64,000 nt of DNA, from assembly GCA_903893215.1 (NCBI GenBank), contig CAITLJ010000023.1, positions 1-64,000 of the forward strand. The letters run 5' to 3'. Shown here in pieces: positions 1-5,541 of the stretch. The position numbers were made by a program, and so were the translations under genes. Each line of letters begins with the position of its first letter. Position 1 is the first letter of the stretch. The stretch is from an uncultured Ferrovum sp. (lineage in GTDB: Bacteria; Pseudomonadota; Gammaproteobacteria; Burkholderiales; Ferrovaceae). A model generated the notes under the pieces. That model was not told the origin of the DNA. It saw only the letters and a list, made by a program, of their open reading frames with translations, and ran no database searches.

Positions 1-108
1 GCCACTCACCCGCAACGCTGGAGCCGGCATACCCGGTGCTGGTCGGAACCAGATCATGTGTGGCTCAACCCCCCATCGAAGACGGAGAAAGTAGCGACGA
101 TAAATTGA
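1..108 (+). CDS. Transposase C-terminal end, IS3-type OrfB (partial at window edge)
   Basis: The first reading frame is open from base 1 to a TGA at 106-108 and encodes 35 residues. They include HPQRWSRHTRCW and, further on, VWLNPP. This arrangement (His-Pro-x-Arg-Trp, an Arg/Trp-rich stretch, then V-W-L/I-N-P-P) is what I know from the C-terminal tails of IS3-family OrfB transposases. The DDE catalytic core would lie to the left, outside the window. A possible element end is the sequence ending TGTTGACA at about 134, which read inward gives TGTCAACATAG and fits the 5'-TG rule for IS3 ends. Only the tail is visible, so whether the element is intact cannot be judged. Confidence 0.5.
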   Translation, partial: ATHPQRWSRHTRCWSEPDHVWLNPPSKTEKVATIN

Positions 109-306
109 TCGACGGGGTGCCAACTATGTTGACAGACACCGGAATGCTTCCTGTCTTGGTGAGGTGATTTCGGGGCTGCCCTGCGGCAGCGGTGGTCGAA
201 TCATTCACCCGGTAGATGGCAGGAATATGAACGTTGTGCTTTGCAGCACAAAATGATGAAAACAAGCACGCGGATGTTGCGTTTTAACAACGACACCCGC
301 GCGTTT
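109..306. other. Non-coding gap between transposase tail and phosphoesterase
   Basis: I see no convincing gene here. The left portion (to about 134) may be the end of the insertion sequence. A perfect 6-bp hairpin, GCTGCC-CTGC-GGCAGC, lies at 175-190 but has no T-tract, so I do not call it a terminator. The phosphoesterase transcript from the right presumably ends in this gap. Confidence 0.4.
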
Positions 307-1578
307 TCAGTGTGTGTTGCTGCTCAGATCGATACGGTCAAGCAGGCGCGTACCACTGAAATCCTGGTTGAACCCGAAGGTATCCATGCTGACCCGGCCA
401 CTACGATGCACCGACACCTGCGCCCAGGCGTAGGTGAGGTCGGTGTCGGGATGGCGCGTATTGACCGCTTTCTTCTTGCTGCCGCCTGCGGAGAAAGGTG
501 ACCCGCCAGATCCCACGATCACCTGCCACGCCGGCAAGCCTTGCGTCAAGGTGGGTTGCTCGATGTGATAAATGTGCTGGTGACCACAAAAATAGGTGCC
601 GCCGTAGCGGTTTACCAGCGCCCAGAACTGGTCGCGATTGCCGCCCGGGGTGGCATCGCTGAAGCCGTCCGGCGGGACGTCGTCGGCATACTGGTAGGCA
701 AAGGCCGGTTTGTGGCCAAACAGGAACAGGTGCTTCTGTCCCCGGCGCGTGAATGCTGCTGCGAGGTCCTGTGCCAGCCACTGCACGGCTACACTGCCAT
801 CGCGACCGACCGGGTCGGTATCCAGCACGACGAAGTGGCTGTCACCCACGTCGAAGCTGTAGGTGAGCTGCCGCTGGCTGGTGGCAATGCCATCGAGCAC
901 CGCCGGATCGGCAATCGCCGGCTCGGCCGCGTCGCCGGAAAAATGCGTCGCCGGTTGCCCGACCACGGCCGGGAAGCGCTTTGCATCGAGGATCAGGTCG
1001 CCCATGTTGGCGCGCCACAGCGCTTCATTGGCCGGCTGCGCCTTTTTGCCAAGCCCCTTGTCCTGCACTTCATGATTTCCCGGCACTGGCACGACGTAGG
1101 TGCCAGTCTCGAACAGGTTAGCTACCAGGCCGCGCCAAAAGGCATACCACGCCTGAAACTGTGTGTAGCCGTTGCTGGCGACAACCGCCCCGGACACCGG
1201 ATCGAGCGTCACGGCTGGCGCCTGCGGGTCGAGCTTGCCGTAGCCCATGATCATGTCACCGTTGAAGAACAGCAGTTGCGGATGCTGGGCCCCGATCTCG
1301 CGGACCAGGCGCGCCCAAGCTGGTGTGTTCTGCAGCCACTGACGGTCCTGCGCCGACAGCCCCACCGTCGCCGGGTCTTCCCGCGAATCGCCGACCGTGG
1401 CGAAGCTGAGCACGACCGGATCGTTGGGCGCCACGCCGGCCGCGAGGCTGGCCGCCCCAGGCGCGGCCCAGGCGGTGCCGCTGCCGACGCCCCACCACAC
1501 GACCACAACCCCCAGAATCAGGCCCGCCAGGGCCTGCGCCTCGCTGCCGGGACGATGGACGCGAATACGTCGGCGCAT
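307..1578 (-). CDS. Exported metallophosphoesterase (calcineurin-like)
   Basis: A 423-residue calcineurin-like metallophosphoesterase that should hydrolyse phosphate esters outside the cytoplasm. The metal-ligand motifs appear in order: GDSR (63-66), NGD (106-108), GNHE (167-170), GHKP (288-291) and GHQH (332-335). Residues 16-38 form a hydrophobic signal or anchor segment ending TAWA-A. The ATG at 1578 is preceded by GGGAGG about 8 nt upstream, while longer versions run into the neighbouring gene. It is the last gene of a leftward unit, 16 bp after the YncE-like gene and behind a TonB receptor with a Pho box, so I infer it releases phosphate or processes the receptor's substrate. The exact substrate (phosphomonoester, phytate or nucleotide) cannot be read from sequence. 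Confidence 0.85.
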   Translation of the reverse strand: MRRRIRVHRPGSEAQALAGLILGVVVVWWGVGSGTAWAAPGAASLAAGVAPNDPVVLSFATVGDSREDPATVGLSAQDRQWLQNTPAWARLVREIGAQHPQLLFFNGDMIMGYGKLDPQAPAVTLDPVSGAVVASNGYTQFQAWYAFWRGLVANLFETGTYVVPVPGNHEVQDKGLGKKAQPANEALWRANMGDLILDAKRFPAVVGQPATHFSGDAAEPAIADPAVLDGIATSQRQLTYSFDVGDSHFVVLDTDPVGRDGSVAVQWLAQDLAAAFTRRGQKHLFLFGHKPAFAYQYADDVPPDGFSDATPGGNRDQFWALVNRYGGTYFCGHQHIYHIEQPTLTQGLPAWQVIVGSGGSPFSAGGSKKKAVNTRHPDTDLTYAWAQVSVHRSGRVSMDTFGFNQDFSGTRLLDRIDLSSNTH

Positions 1579-1594
1579 CAGGTGTGCCTCCCGC

Positions 1595-2656
1595 TCAGGG
1601 CTTGGGCGCCACGACCAGCAGTTCAAACTCCGGCTTGCCCGGCACCGGGATGTAAAGGGTGCCCGTGACCACATCGTAGGCGTTAGTGCGACCCTTGGGC
1701 GCCGTTGGCAGCGTCTGCGCCAGATGGTAATGGTCGCCATCGTCCTGCTGCACGATGGACACCGTGCCGACTTCGCCGCCCGTGGAGAACAGCAACCCGC
1801 GCCTGGCGTCGTAAAACACGCCGTCCGGCCCCTTGCCCACAGCCACCTTGGCCACTTGCCTGCCAGAGGCCGGGTCGGTCACCACCAGCACGCCATTGGC
1901 GCATACCGAGAACACGCGCTGGTTGGCGGCATCCAGAGCCAGCCCGGTGGGCTCTTCGCAGCCCGGCAGGTCGATGCGCTTGCGGATCGCCAGCTTGGGC
2001 AGGTCGATCACCGCTACCTGCGCCTTGTCTTCCAGGTTCAGGTACAGCGTGTTGCCGTCGGCCGCCATCACTTCGGGCTTGCCGTCCACCGGCAGCGTCT
2101 GCTCCACAGCCCCGGTCTCGGGATTGATCACCGTGACATTGCGCCCACGGCCGTTGAAACTATAAACGCGGTCGGTGCTGGCGAGATACAACACGGCATC
2201 CGGGTTGTCACCGCCGGACGGCGTCTTGCGGATCACCTCCAGCGTCTTCAGGTTGAAGGTGACGATGCTGTTGGTCTTGCCACTGCTGACATAGCCTTGG
2301 TTGCGCTTCACATCGAAAGCCACGCCGTGGGTGCTGCCGACCAGACCGTCAATGCGCATGGGGGGCAGCTTGCCGGCCGGGTCAATCGCACTAAGGTGAT
2401 CTCCCAGTGTCAAAAAGACCCGCCCCGTGCTTTCCTCGAAGGCGGCGAAATCCCAGCCGGGGGCAGCGCCCACAGGGATGTGCCGGGTGACCGCGTACTC
2501 CGCCGGCGCGGCAGCGTCCGCTGGCTGCGGCAGCGTCAAGGCCAGGGCGCTCAGGGTAAGCGTGCGTGCCAGAACGTTCGGGGAAAGAGTCAGGCCAGCC
2601 TTGCGGCCGCCCCGTCCAGCGGCCGCCGCAGCGGCCGCAATGCGGGCAAAGATCAT
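1595..2656 (-). CDS. Secreted YncE-like beta-propeller protein
   Basis: 353 residues with repeated blade-like motifs (DKAQVAVIDLP, ASGRQVAKVAVGKGPDGV, TNSIVTFNLKTLEVI), typical of the YncE/YVTN seven-bladed propeller family. An Ala/Leu-rich segment ending at about residue 49 (PADA-A) looks like a signal peptide, giving a periplasmic protein. Family members are often encoded beside TonB-dependent receptors and are thought to act as periplasmic binding or accessory partners; their biochemical role is unclear. The gene lies 8 bp after the receptor gene and shows no Shine-Dalgarno, so translational coupling is likely. The n-region of the proposed signal peptide is unusually long (about 30 residues, Ala/Gly/Arg-rich), so the true start could be internal. 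Confidence 0.75.
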   Translation of the reverse strand: MIFARIAAAAAAAGRGGRKAGLTLSPNVLARTLTLSALALTLPQPADAAAPAEYAVTRHIPVGAAPGWDFAAFEESTGRVFLTLGDHLSAIDPAGKLPPMRIDGLVGSTHGVAFDVKRNQGYVSSGKTNSIVTFNLKTLEVIRKTPSGGDNPDAVLYLASTDRVYSFNGRGRNVTVINPETGAVEQTLPVDGKPEVMAADGNTLYLNLEDKAQVAVIDLPKLAIRKRIDLPGCEEPTGLALDAANQRVFSVCANGVLVVTDPASGRQVAKVAVGKGPDGVFYDARRGLLFSTGGEVGTVSIVQQDDGDHYHLAQTLPTAPKGRTNAYDVVTGTLYIPVPGKPEFELLVVAPKP

Positions 2657-2664
2657 CAGTAATC

Positions 2665-5472
2665 TCAGTAATTGAAGTTCAGACCAAACTGCATCGTGAC
2701 GTTGTAAAACTCACGCTGGATCGGACGGTTGGATTGACCCTCAGTGTACTTGAGCGGTTCGTTGGTGATGTTCTTGAAGTTGACGTACAGCGACAGCTGC
2801 TTGTCGAGCGCGTAGGTACTGGAGAAGTCCACGGTGGTACGGTCTTCCTGGAACACGTCCAGCCCCGGACCACTTCCAACACCGAACAGGTTGCGGCTTA
2901 CGTAATAGGCGCCAAGGCGCGCGGTGATGGCATCCTTTTCGTAGAACACCGCGATATTGCCCGTGCCGCGCGAGGTCAGCGGCAGCTGGCTTTTCTCGCC
3001 CGGGCGGATATCAAAACTCGAATCCACGAACGTGTAATTGGCGCTGGTACCCAAACCACCGAAGTAGCCCGGCAGGTTGCTAAACTTGTTGACGTAGTTC
3101 AGTTCCAGACCGCGGGCGTAAGAGCTGCCGGCATTGCTGTAGCTGGTTTGGGTGTACAGGTTGCCCGCGATCACAGGATGCGACACGTTGGTGATGATGT
3201 AATCGCTGAACTGCTTGTTGAAGATGGCCGCAGAAATGATGCCTGCATGCGGCAGGTACTGCTCGATCGAGGCATCCAGGTTGATCGACGTCTGTGGCTT
3301 CAGGTTGGGGTTACCCTGCGAGATGGTGAGGGCGCCGCTATCAATCAGGTAGGGCGAGTTGACCTGACCGAAGGTGGGGCGGGCAATGGCTGTGGACACT
3401 GCCAGACGTCCGATCAGGTCCTGTGAGAAGGCATAACGCGCCTGCAGCGACGGAAAGAAGTTGTTGTAGCTGTTGCTGTTGGTTTCCGGCGTGTCTGTAC
3501 CAGCCACCACGTCCTGGTGATCGTGGGTATATTTGGCGCGGGTGGCTTCGGCACGCGCCCCGCCAATGAATGACCAGTCGCCATAACCGAATTCGTATTG
3601 GCCGTAGGCGGCGTAAACGTCTTCCGCCTCGCTTTCGACCGATGTCGGGTCCAACGTTGCGCCGGCCGGATTGGCGAACAGACCCTGGGTGAGCGCCGTG
3701 CTGATGGTCGGACCATTGTTGTACACGCCGTTATAAAAACTCACGGCGGCCGGGTCGGTGACGTAACTGGCCAGCGGCGCATTCAGCGGCGTGTTCGCAT
3801 ACTGATAGGTGTAGGTGCCCGGCACATTGCGGGTGCGCAGACGAGCATTCAGGCCCACCTTGATGTTTTCGCCGTCCATGTCGGTGAATTGCGTTGGCAT
3901 CTTGAAGTTGACCTGATAAGCCTTTTCCTGATCAACAATGCTATTCGCGGTATTTTTGATCTTGGCCAGGTTGTAGCCGGCCGTCGTGTAGGGGTTGGCT
4001 CCGGTCACTGACACCACCGGATAACCGCCATTGGTGGTGTTGTAGGTAACGGTGGCGGGCGTGGCGGGTGAGAAGGTGAACGAGGTGTTGCGGTCGTACA
4101 GGTTGTCGAAGCTGCCGCGGGTGTAGCCGACACGGTAATCCAGAGTGTCTTCACCGATCCGGTTGGAGCCGCCCAGCGCCATGACGCGGTTACCCACCTT
4201 TTCAGCATGGTCGCGCAGCGCGCGGGTGAAGTTACCACCGCCTGCTGCAGAAATGGTGTCGGTGAAACTGCCGCTGGCATCCGGCCCCACCGGTGCGCCG
4301 TCCGGGTTGAAAATCAGACGCTGGCGTTCCACGGTTTCGGTATAACCGGCGGTAAAAGCACGAAAGTAGTACTTGCTGTCGGCAGTGGGCTGGAATCCCA
4401 AGTCCAGACCAAAAGCGTGACGGGTACGGTGATAACGATAGAAGCGCTGCTCGATGCCGGCCAGCGAGTTGTTCAAGGGAGTGGTGTTGTCCAGATAGCC
4501 GGGTTCGACGTCATCAATGCCGCGTTTGTCTTCGTAGTAGGTGCCGGTAGCTACCACGCTGAACGGACGGTCAGAGTACGACTCGAGCTTGTTGCCGGGC
4601 TCCAGCATGATGTCGGCAAGGCCAAAGCGCGTGCCGGCAGTCAGCGACAGGTCGGCGATGCCGCTGTTGCGCAGGAATTCACGACCCGATCCGATGTGAC
4701 CTTCCACGAAGGGTTTGCCGCTGAGCGGGGCGGTCTTCGGGGTGATTTCGATGGTGCCACCGATCGCTTCGGCATCCTGCTCGGGCGTCAACGTCTTGGT
4801 CACCGTCATTGCACCGATCAGTCCGGTGGGGATGGCATCGAGCGCCACGGCGCGACCGGCCGAGGGCGAGGCATTGTTCGATGGCGGCAGGCGCAGGCCG
4901 CCAAAAGTCACGCTGTTGAAGTCGGCGTTGATACCGCGAATCAGCACAAAGCGACCTTCTGCAGTGTCGTAGGTCAGTGACACGCCCGGCACACGGGCCA
5001 GGGCTTCACCAGCGCTAACGTCCGGCAGCTTGCGGATTTCTTCGGCCGTGGTGATCGTGACCTGGTTCGGCGCGTCCTGCTGCGCGGCACGCGCCACGGC
5101 CGACGAGGTACGCTGCGCCAGCACCTGCACCGATTCCAGCGTGGCCACCTTGGCGTCCAGCTCAAAATCCTTTGCCACACCGGATTCGGCGACCGTCACG
5201 CTGGCGCGCGCGCGTTCCAATCCGTCGATTTCCACGGTGACGGTGTAGGTTCCCGCGGCCAAGCCCTCCAGTTTGTACACCCCGTTGCCATCTGTCACGA
5301 CCTGCTTGCCGGTTTCCAGCACGGTCACGCGCACACCCACAGCCGGACGGTGGCTCACCGAAGACTGCACCTTGCCAGTGATGGCGACCTCGCCGGCGGC
5401 GTGGGCAAACGTGGTGCACAGGGCGAGCACCAAGGCGGACAACACCGGGCGACAGGAATGAATGCGAGACAT
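2665..5472 (-). CDS. TonB-dependent outer-membrane receptor with N-terminal CarboxypepD_reg-like domain
   Basis: A 935-residue TonB-dependent transporter. After a signal peptide (cleavage near THAHAA-type residue 25) comes a carboxypeptidase-regulatory-like beta domain (about 28-110: GEVAITGKVQ to VTVAESG). A plug follows (IRKLPDVSAGEALARVPGVS, then LIRGINADFNSVTFGG), then a long beta-barrel ending in an aromatic residue (FGLNFNY), as outer-membrane proteins do. The ATG at 5472 has GGAG 6 nt upstream; a TTG at 5484 is less likely. It is the first gene of the receptor / beta-propeller / phosphoesterase unit and lies 52 bp below a Pho box, so phosphate-starvation control is inferred. The ligand is unknown. 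The barrel style resembles receptors for organic substrates rather than classical ferric siderophore receptors. Confidence 0.9.
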   Translation of the reverse strand: MSRIHSCRPVLSALVLALCTTFAHAAGEVAITGKVQSSVSHRPAVGVRVTVLETGKQVVTDGNGVYKLEGLAAGTYTVTVEIDGLERARASVTVAESGVAKDFELDAKVATLESVQVLAQRTSSAVARAAQQDAPNQVTITTAEEIRKLPDVSAGEALARVPGVSLTYDTAEGRFVLIRGINADFNSVTFGGLRLPPSNNASPSAGRAVALDAIPTGLIGAMTVTKTLTPEQDAEAIGGTIEITPKTAPLSGKPFVEGHIGSGREFLRNSGIADLSLTAGTRFGLADIMLEPGNKLESYSDRPFSVVATGTYYEDKRGIDDVEPGYLDNTTPLNNSLAGIEQRFYRYHRTRHAFGLDLGFQPTADSKYYFRAFTAGYTETVERQRLIFNPDGAPVGPDASGSFTDTISAAGGGNFTRALRDHAEKVGNRVMALGGSNRIGEDTLDYRVGYTRGSFDNLYDRNTSFTFSPATPATVTYNTTNGGYPVVSVTGANPYTTAGYNLAKIKNTANSIVDQEKAYQVNFKMPTQFTDMDGENIKVGLNARLRTRNVPGTYTYQYANTPLNAPLASYVTDPAAVSFYNGVYNNGPTISTALTQGLFANPAGATLDPTSVESEAEDVYAAYGQYEFGYGDWSFIGGARAEATRAKYTHDHQDVVAGTDTPETNSNSYNNFFPSLQARYAFSQDLIGRLAVSTAIARPTFGQVNSPYLIDSGALTISQGNPNLKPQTSINLDASIEQYLPHAGIISAAIFNKQFSDYIITNVSHPVIAGNLYTQTSYSNAGSSYARGLELNYVNKFSNLPGYFGGLGTSANYTFVDSSFDIRPGEKSQLPLTSRGTGNIAVFYEKDAITARLGAYYVSRNLFGVGSGPGLDVFQEDRTTVDFSSTYALDKQLSLYVNFKNITNEPLKYTEGQSNRPIQREFYNVTMQFGLNFNY

Positions 5473-5523
5473 GAGGGGCTCCAACGGGACTGTAATGATG
5501 ATCTGTCACGGTAGTCGGTGAAG

Positions 5524-5541
5524 ATGACAGTCCAATGAAAG
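5524..5541 (-). promoter_or_regulatory. Candidate Pho box (PhoB-binding site)
   Basis: Reading leftward, the sequence is CTTTCAT-TGGA-CTGTCAT: two 7-mers spaced exactly 4 bp. Against the consensus direct repeat CTGTCAT-N4-CTGTCAY only one repeat base differs. It ends 52 bp before the receptor ATG, where a PhoB-activated promoter would have its -35 region. The basis is pattern matching only. Confidence 0.6.

Follow-up and report, generated by a model that had tools for sequence, protein, structure and literature searches.

A predicted Pho-controlled operon of a TonB-dependent receptor, a YncE-like propeller and a metallophosphoesterase in an uncultured Ferrovum sp.

Outer-membrane passage of large phosphorus compounds in Gram-negative bacteria has been described mainly for Bacteroidetes. 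In Flavobacterium, PUS clusters place TonB transporters that are induced by phosphate depletion beside periplasmic phosphatases or phosphodiesterases, and they are thought to import organic phosphorus (PMC8115612). Here we describe a comparable locus in a 64 kb stretch of DNA from an uncultured Ferrovum sp. (assembly GCA_903893215.1, contig CAITLJ010000023.1, positions 1 to 64,000; hereafter "the window"), where a Pho box precedes genes for a TonB-dependent receptor (receptor A), a YncE-like beta-propeller and an exported metallophosphoesterase (MPE). This arrangement had been proposed in a first-pass annotation made from the sequence letters, with the strand unstated; our coordinates, profile searches and predicted models confirmed it and placed all four elements on the minus strand.

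Like the Flavobacterium clusters, the Ferrovum operon groups a TonB transporter with a phosphate-releasing enzyme. It differs in that PUS clusters pair SusC with a SusD lipoprotein (PMC8115612), whereas here the middle gene encodes a propeller, relatives have a linked TonB set, and no SusD family was found among the Pfam matches (E 0.001) of the three proteins encoded up to the contig edge. The PhoB regulon of Caulobacter crescentus contains TonB-dependent receptors, phosphatases and a phytase, and so shares PhoB-regulated receptors and phosphatases with the present case, but the accessible part of that account describes no receptor-propeller-phosphoesterase operon (PMC11208175). The vre/hxc phosphate-starvation locus of Pseudomonas aeruginosa likewise combines a TonB set, the still uncharacterised exbB2-exbD2-tonB4, with a phosphatase gene, lapA; it differs in its type II secretion and TPS genes and in being controlled by the sigma factor VreI as well (PMC7035377). 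In Citromicrobium, a TonB receptor gene adjoins a phytase gene and phytate import has been proposed; receptor and phosphate-releasing enzyme are paired as here, but the enzyme is a phytase and the accessible part of the report mentions no propeller (PMC3400609). A receptor and a YncE gene have also been drawn together in xoxF3 clusters (PMC10875860). We found no description of the receptor-propeller-phosphoesterase combination in the open-licence literature, as judged by titles and the starts of abstracts. The principle is known from the Bacteroidetes PUS clusters, and the present combination looks like a new variant of it.

The Pho box and the PhoB regulon

The PhoB box consensus comprises two direct 7-base repeats of CTGTCAT with 4 bases between them, and in PhoB-activated promoters, as at phoA, the -10 hexamer follows the box by ~10 bases. 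The site in the window (CTTTCAT-TGGA-CTGTCAT, 5524..5541) has this 7-4-7 architecture with one mismatch to CTGTCATNNNNCTGTCAT. Ten bases after it lies the predicted -10 hexamer TACCGT (5508..5513), a weak match to TATAAT and the best -10 match at spacing 10 in this promoter. Receptor A (935 aa, 2665..5472), the propeller (353 aa, 1595..2656) and MPE (423 aa, 307..1578) follow in that order. Since the gaps between them are 8 bases (receptor A to propeller) and 16 bases (propeller to MPE), a single transcript for all three genes is likely.

The Pho box was the sole site in the window with one mismatch or none, and 0 of 100 dinucleotide shuffles yielded such a site. The whole genome (3.27 Mb, 84 contigs) contained four, the window Pho box included, and at up to three mismatches it held 169 sites compared with 59 for the same pattern read backwards. 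The second of the four precedes a pstS-like gene (contig C39; PF12849) and shows the layout seen in the window: box, exactly 10 bases, then TACTTT. The third immediately precedes the gene for a PPK2 polyphosphate kinase (contig C37; L075 3233-4239), which is likely a further member of this genome's Pho regulon. One condition set in the first-pass annotation for control by phosphate starvation was the presence of PhoB; the genome encodes it (TIGR02154, 339.8 bits; cut-off 296.2), and a PhoR-like kinase gene, recognized by eye, adjoins the PhoB gene.

The promoter was also retained in a second genome of the genus (G001), where sspB, a tRNA-Thr(TGT) gene and a YidB-like gene are followed by a receptor A homologue that is 81% identical over residues 6-439 and within which the contig ends. 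Upstream of this gene we found CTTTCACCGCTCTGTCAC, followed by 10 bases and TACCTT. In the pairwise alignment with the window, the heptamers differ at their last bases only and the -10 hexamer at one base; box, 10-base spacing and -10 were kept although the spacer and a large part of the flanking sequence diverged. Taken with the presence of PhoB and the shared layout at pstS, this comparison leaves the proposed PhoB control of the operon well supported.

To extend the comparison to other lineages, we scored upstream regions of homologues of MPE and of receptor B, a second TonB-dependent receptor encoded beyond MPE in G001. The weights were set by us from the consensus, and the thresholds of 14 and 16 were chosen after the scores were known. 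MPE relatives came from a scan of genome contigs, the best 80 of 127 being kept; four homologues with short upstream regions were dropped, and the 79 usable regions count one genome (G002) twice (L068, L085) and include the window MPE, whose upstream region is the propeller gene. Scores of at least 16 occurred in 8 of these 79 regions, compared with 4 of 633 control open reading frames (ORFs); the reversed motif reached this score in none of the 79. The eight belong to Deefgea, two Iodobacter, Beijerinckia, G035 and metagenome-assembled genomes (MAGs) labelled Methylobacter, Rhizobiales and beta proteobacterium. For receptor B, drawn from the MPE loci and the family's genomes after three rows with 60-61 bases upstream were dropped, scores of at least 14 occurred in 7 of 37 regions (8 of 609 controls; 0 of 37 reversed), and four of the seven are close relatives (Duganella twice, Pseudoduganella and an Oxalobacteraceae MAG). 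After close relatives had been collapsed, one-sided Fisher tests gave P values of 2e-4 for MPE and 0.0024 for receptor B. The controls were six-frame ORFs of at least 300 aa from the same loci, some of which are non-genes that possibly lower the control rate, a problem that the reversed motif, scored on the same stretches, avoids.

The -10 hexamer followed the same rule at many of these boxes. We assembled 18 sites by box score or by name, and not by their -10: MPE homologues scoring at least 16, receptor B homologues scoring at least 14, and the window, G001, pstS and PPK2 sites, with one of the two near-identical Iodobacter omitted. The best -10 match stood at spacing 10 in 13 of the 18, and the mean -10 score there was +1.87, being negative at the other 20 spacings. 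A box score of at least 10 combined with TAnnnT at spacing 10 was found in 11 of 113 cases and in 6 of 609 controls (P 5e-6; 0.004 with relatives collapsed).

The operon proteins and their recurring partners

The N-termini of all three operon proteins appeared signal-peptide-like when judged by eye. Receptor A scored 407 bits against TIGR01782 (cut-off 310) and comprises a carboxypeptidase-regulatory-like N domain, a plug and a barrel (PF13620, PF07715 and PF00593, all over their cut-offs). The propeller, which is probably exported, matched whole-protein profiles below their cut-offs throughout (PF21783, 25.9 versus 27.1; PQQ_ABC_repeats, 57 versus 287), and its predicted model was confident (mean pLDDT 89.5). 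In E. coli, the YncE gene adjoins that of the TonB receptor YncD/PqqU. The Ferrovum propeller resembles YncE in fold, YncE being its best PDB match (TM 0.74/0.82) with WD40 proteins nearly tied, and in standing beside a TonB receptor; it differs in sequence (18-19% identity), the receptors belong to different subfamilies, and the E. coli pair has no phosphoesterase. Its identity as YncE proper was rejected for want of profile support (56.4 bits against the YncE equivalog NF052280, cut-off 400), and a phytase identity likewise, no phytase family having matched in Pfam or NCBIfam at E 0.001.

MPE (1578-307; the profile scan started from 1581) matched PF00149 at 29.0 bits (cut-off 21.5). A single-sequence search of the PDB gave no match, and a profile search retrieved two purple acid phosphatase sequences at E about 7e-4. 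The predicted model (mean pLDDT 83.1) aligned with Lmo2642 (Z 23.9, rmsd 3.4, 259 residues) and kidney bean purple acid phosphatase (Z 23.5, rmsd 3.2, 268 aligned), followed by SMPDL3A (Z 22.1), wheat purple acid phytase (20.4), GpdQ (20.2) and PhoD (20.1), matches with Z within 1 of each other being treated as tied. Candidate metal ligands were nearly invariant among homologues: D65 in 79/79, D109 in 81/81, N169 in 81/82, and H290, H334 and H336 each in 82/82. In purple acid phosphatases a tyrosine ligand lies in the motif GDxxY; since MPE reads GDMIM at this position, with methionine 112 in place of the tyrosine, we did not class it as a purple acid phosphatase, although the fold agrees. The shared folds of MPE and the propeller do not reveal a substrate.

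Genes of the operon recur with TonB genes and phosphoesterases in other genomes. Receptor B was linked to and co-oriented with MPE in 16 of the 80 MPE loci, and in three more it lay within 200 bases on the opposite strand. Among 61 genomes, receptor A (E <=1e-40) occurred in two, this one and G001, where it is cut by the contig end, and MPE in five, this one included (weakest E 4e-4 over 64 residues). Across the order, 11 of 399 genomes had the propeller (E <=1e-40), again including this one. We examined ten propeller loci outside the family, nine genomes being represented and G142 contributing two: receptor A adjoins one (L213), and in two (L215, L216) the partners are ExbB, TonB and a member of a second phosphoesterase subfamily, MPE-2. 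MPE and MPE-2 have no significant BLASTP similarity (best E 1.3). PF00149 was found in the three MPE-2 members scanned with Pfam, and no NCBIfam family matched the one member scanned with that set (L193). MPE-2 members in TonB operons with receptor B or the propeller are L071 266-1672, L193 3870-5216, L196 7643-9058, L199 8296-9666, L215 1854-3275 and L216 5697-7163.

The gene orders around MPE-2 vary. In G008 (same family, other genus), MPE-2 (PF00149), TonB and ExbB are divergent from the propeller; a second contig carries a very similar propeller and then receptor B, and a third carries TonB, MPE-2 and receptor B. In G109 and G415, from another family, the order is ExbB, TonB, MPE-2 (a PF00149 match in G109) and propeller, the last two overlapping in G109. 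In G011, MPE-2 follows ExbB and TonB and precedes receptor B, whose upstream region has a Pho score of 19.6 but no -10 at spacing 10; G016 has TonB, MPE-2 and receptor B. In G142, of another family, a receptor A homologue, 48% identical over its full length, overlaps a propeller gene. No close relative of the propeller was found in the 80 MPE loci; there a broad propeller profile found two large proteins far from MPE, L142 (5e-39) and L083 (9e-10). Since a Pho-linked receptor and phosphoesterase, in several cases accompanied by a TonB set, recur in Burkholderiales and beyond, the question of outer-membrane passage becomes testable in Proteobacteria, and named isolates such as Duganella, Pseudoduganella, Deefgea and Iodobacter carry parts of the set. 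Pseudoduganella danionis and Duganella fentianensis (L117, L118), for instance, combine receptor B and MPE with a strong Pho box.

Several observations on homologues stand apart from the operon itself. The two phosphoesterase subfamilies can occur in a single cluster, since one contig (L106 1-5284) has MPE-2 and MPE in succession after the end of receptor B, ExbB and TonB. Receptors of other kinds lie near some MPE homologues, e.g., in L095, L129 and L136. MPE homologues also occur in records of Peribacillus (L123 3568-4707) and Neobacillus (L134 9968-11113), with 46 and 43% identity; since these bacteria have no outer membrane, MPE evidently also works without a TonB receptor.

A proposed uptake pathway and its alternatives

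The reading that we favor, with moderate confidence, is PhoB-controlled, TonB-energised uptake and dephosphorylation of a bulky organophosphate, with the propeller as periplasmic partner. Comparison of the promoters strongly suggests that, under phosphate limitation, phosphorylated PhoB would bind 5541-5524 and recruit RNA polymerase to the weak -10 ten bases downstream. Receptor A, energised by TonB-ExbB-ExbD, would then carry across the outer membrane a compound that, for its size or its scarcity, porins could not supply. In the periplasm, the propeller might hold this compound or an intermediate, or hand it over, and MPE would free phosphate, which would enter the cell via Pst. The first-pass annotation had likewise proposed import and dephosphorylation of a phosphorylated organic compound. 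Import fits the gene linkage, that is, the gene content of the operon and the 16 of 80 loci with linked receptor B, and the boxes at homologues are consistent with it; an organophosphate substrate and phosphate-releasing activity are predictions. For the annotation's third proposal, that the propeller is the periplasmic partner, the recurring neighborhood (window, G008, G109, G415 and G142) offers a hint.

A more specific version is possible, though we hold it only tentatively: a three-part machine of the proteobacterial outer membrane that would handle bulky organophosphates, in which a PhoB-controlled receptor with a dedicated ExbB-ExbD-TonB set would deliver ligand to a periplasmic, seven-bladed propeller, and an exchangeable phosphoesterase would act on it. 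The phosphoesterase slot appears exchangeable because two subfamilies without BLASTP similarity fill it in different families. In such a machine, the propeller might play the role that solute-binding partners play elsewhere. This gives YncE-like propellers adjoining TonB receptors a concrete candidate role and, if the three-part machine is true, a function.

Some of the survey results weigh against uptake of an organophosphate by a Pho-controlled unit. No strong box lay directly upstream of 71 of the 79 MPE homologues, and 64 of the 80 MPE loci had no co-oriented linked receptor B, only 48 of the 80 extending 3 kb on both sides. Five of the 18 boxes, that of PPK2 included, had no -10 at spacing 10. 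The contiguous trio of receptor A, propeller and MPE was found only in this genome among those examined.

One alternative, which we regard as unlikely but the most serious of three, accepts Pho control and has the receptor import a metal complex or cofactor, which could be a metallophore, a PQQ-like compound or metal destined for the phosphoesterase, with phosphate release by MPE running in parallel. Iron and cofactor compounds are the classical cargo of TonB receptors, receptor B is nearest to siderophore-receptor profiles (below cut-off), and the YncE gene of E. coli stands beside YncD/PqqU. The receptor-propeller pair of G142 also points this way, as it has neither a phosphoesterase match nor a Pho box of at least 14. 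However, receptor B or the propeller is repeatedly operon-linked to two different phosphoesterase subfamilies, and the PqqU/YncD profile NF041535 was absent among the family matches of receptor A at E 0.001.

Quite improbable, in our judgment, is that receptor and propeller form a separate module that arrived beside MPE, so that phosphate acquisition falls to MPE alone and the propeller serves an unconnected purpose, e.g., in redox or envelope maintenance. This would suit G002, where the locus between the same tRNAs has MPE without an adjoining receptor, propeller or Pho box and the propeller sits on a separate contig, and G142, where receptor A and propeller stand alone. It would also suit the survey of propeller loci in other families, 7 of 10 of which have no adjoining phosphoesterase or receptor match, some of them cut by contig ends. 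Yet the Pho box kept in G001 precedes the receptor and not MPE, and in G008, G109 and G415 the propeller accompanies TonB genes and a phosphoesterase. We reject as very improbable a Pho box that matches by chance, with other control of the operon: sites with up to three mismatches are no more than ordinary in the window (6 found versus 4.38 expected; 28 of 100 shuffles reach 6), the fourth of the best genomic sites stands on C64, 10 bases ahead of an opposite-strand nadB-like gene (recognized by eye), which is no obvious phosphate gene, and some unrelated genes are among the six controls passing the rule of box plus -10, two of the six having been identified as genes for a di-haem peroxidase and a GGDEF-EAL protein, but the shuffles at one mismatch, the box, spacing and -10 kept in G001, the same layout at pstS and the boxes at homologues in other lineages all speak against it.

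A probable larger unit and its surroundings

The operon with uptake and dephosphorylation as its predicted function was probably once part of a longer unit, an element absent from the first-pass annotation. On contig C39 of G001, the order is MPE, receptor B, ExbB, ~400 unscanned bases in which ExbD would fit, TonB, and genes for tRNA-Tyr, tRNA-Gly and tRNA-Thr(GGT). In the Ferrovum genome analyzed here, contig C40 carries receptor B (82% identical to that of G001) at the contig end, with ExbB, ExbD and TonB, and the start of a tuf-like frame was recognized by eye on the same contig. Since the left edge of the window is the edge of its contig (C23), the unit may be cut there. As in G001, receptor B and its TonB set (here ExbB-ExbD-TonB) probably once followed MPE in one unit.

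Both contig ends bear probable traces of a mobile element. The end of C40 and the left end of the window share a 23-base sequence with 21 identical positions, inward-facing and 108 and 113 bases from the ends; its alignment score was 36, compared with a best of 29 in 500 shuffles. The genome holds three copies of this motif: at the probable end of an IS3-like element downstream of MPE (window 1..136), at the right end of C40 (L184 4849-4979) and at L225 1501-1522, the last adjoining an ORF in which the PF01527 transposase domain was matched. An open frame occupies window positions 1-105 and by eye resembles the end of IS3 OrfB, its 35 residues giving no Pfam match. Since inward-facing copies stand at the two contig ends, an IS3-like element most likely lies between MPE and receptor B in this genome, through which the second half may have lost its connection to the Pho promoter. 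No overlap was seen between C40 and the left end of the window, and because the first 306 bases of the window have no second copy in the genome, which misfits a plain multi-copy insertion sequence, the C23-C40 junction is one that we infer.

On its other side, the Pho box is preceded by tRNA-Thr(TGT) (5707-5633) and sspB (6276-5746), both on the minus strand. In G002 (L068 7669-14480), the stretch between tRNA-Thr(TGT) and tRNA-Tyr/Gly/Thr(GGT) is occupied by MPE, an S41 peptidase and an FAD protein. As these stand where G001 has the receptor and TonB genes, the locus appears to be a tRNA-flanked spot with changing content.

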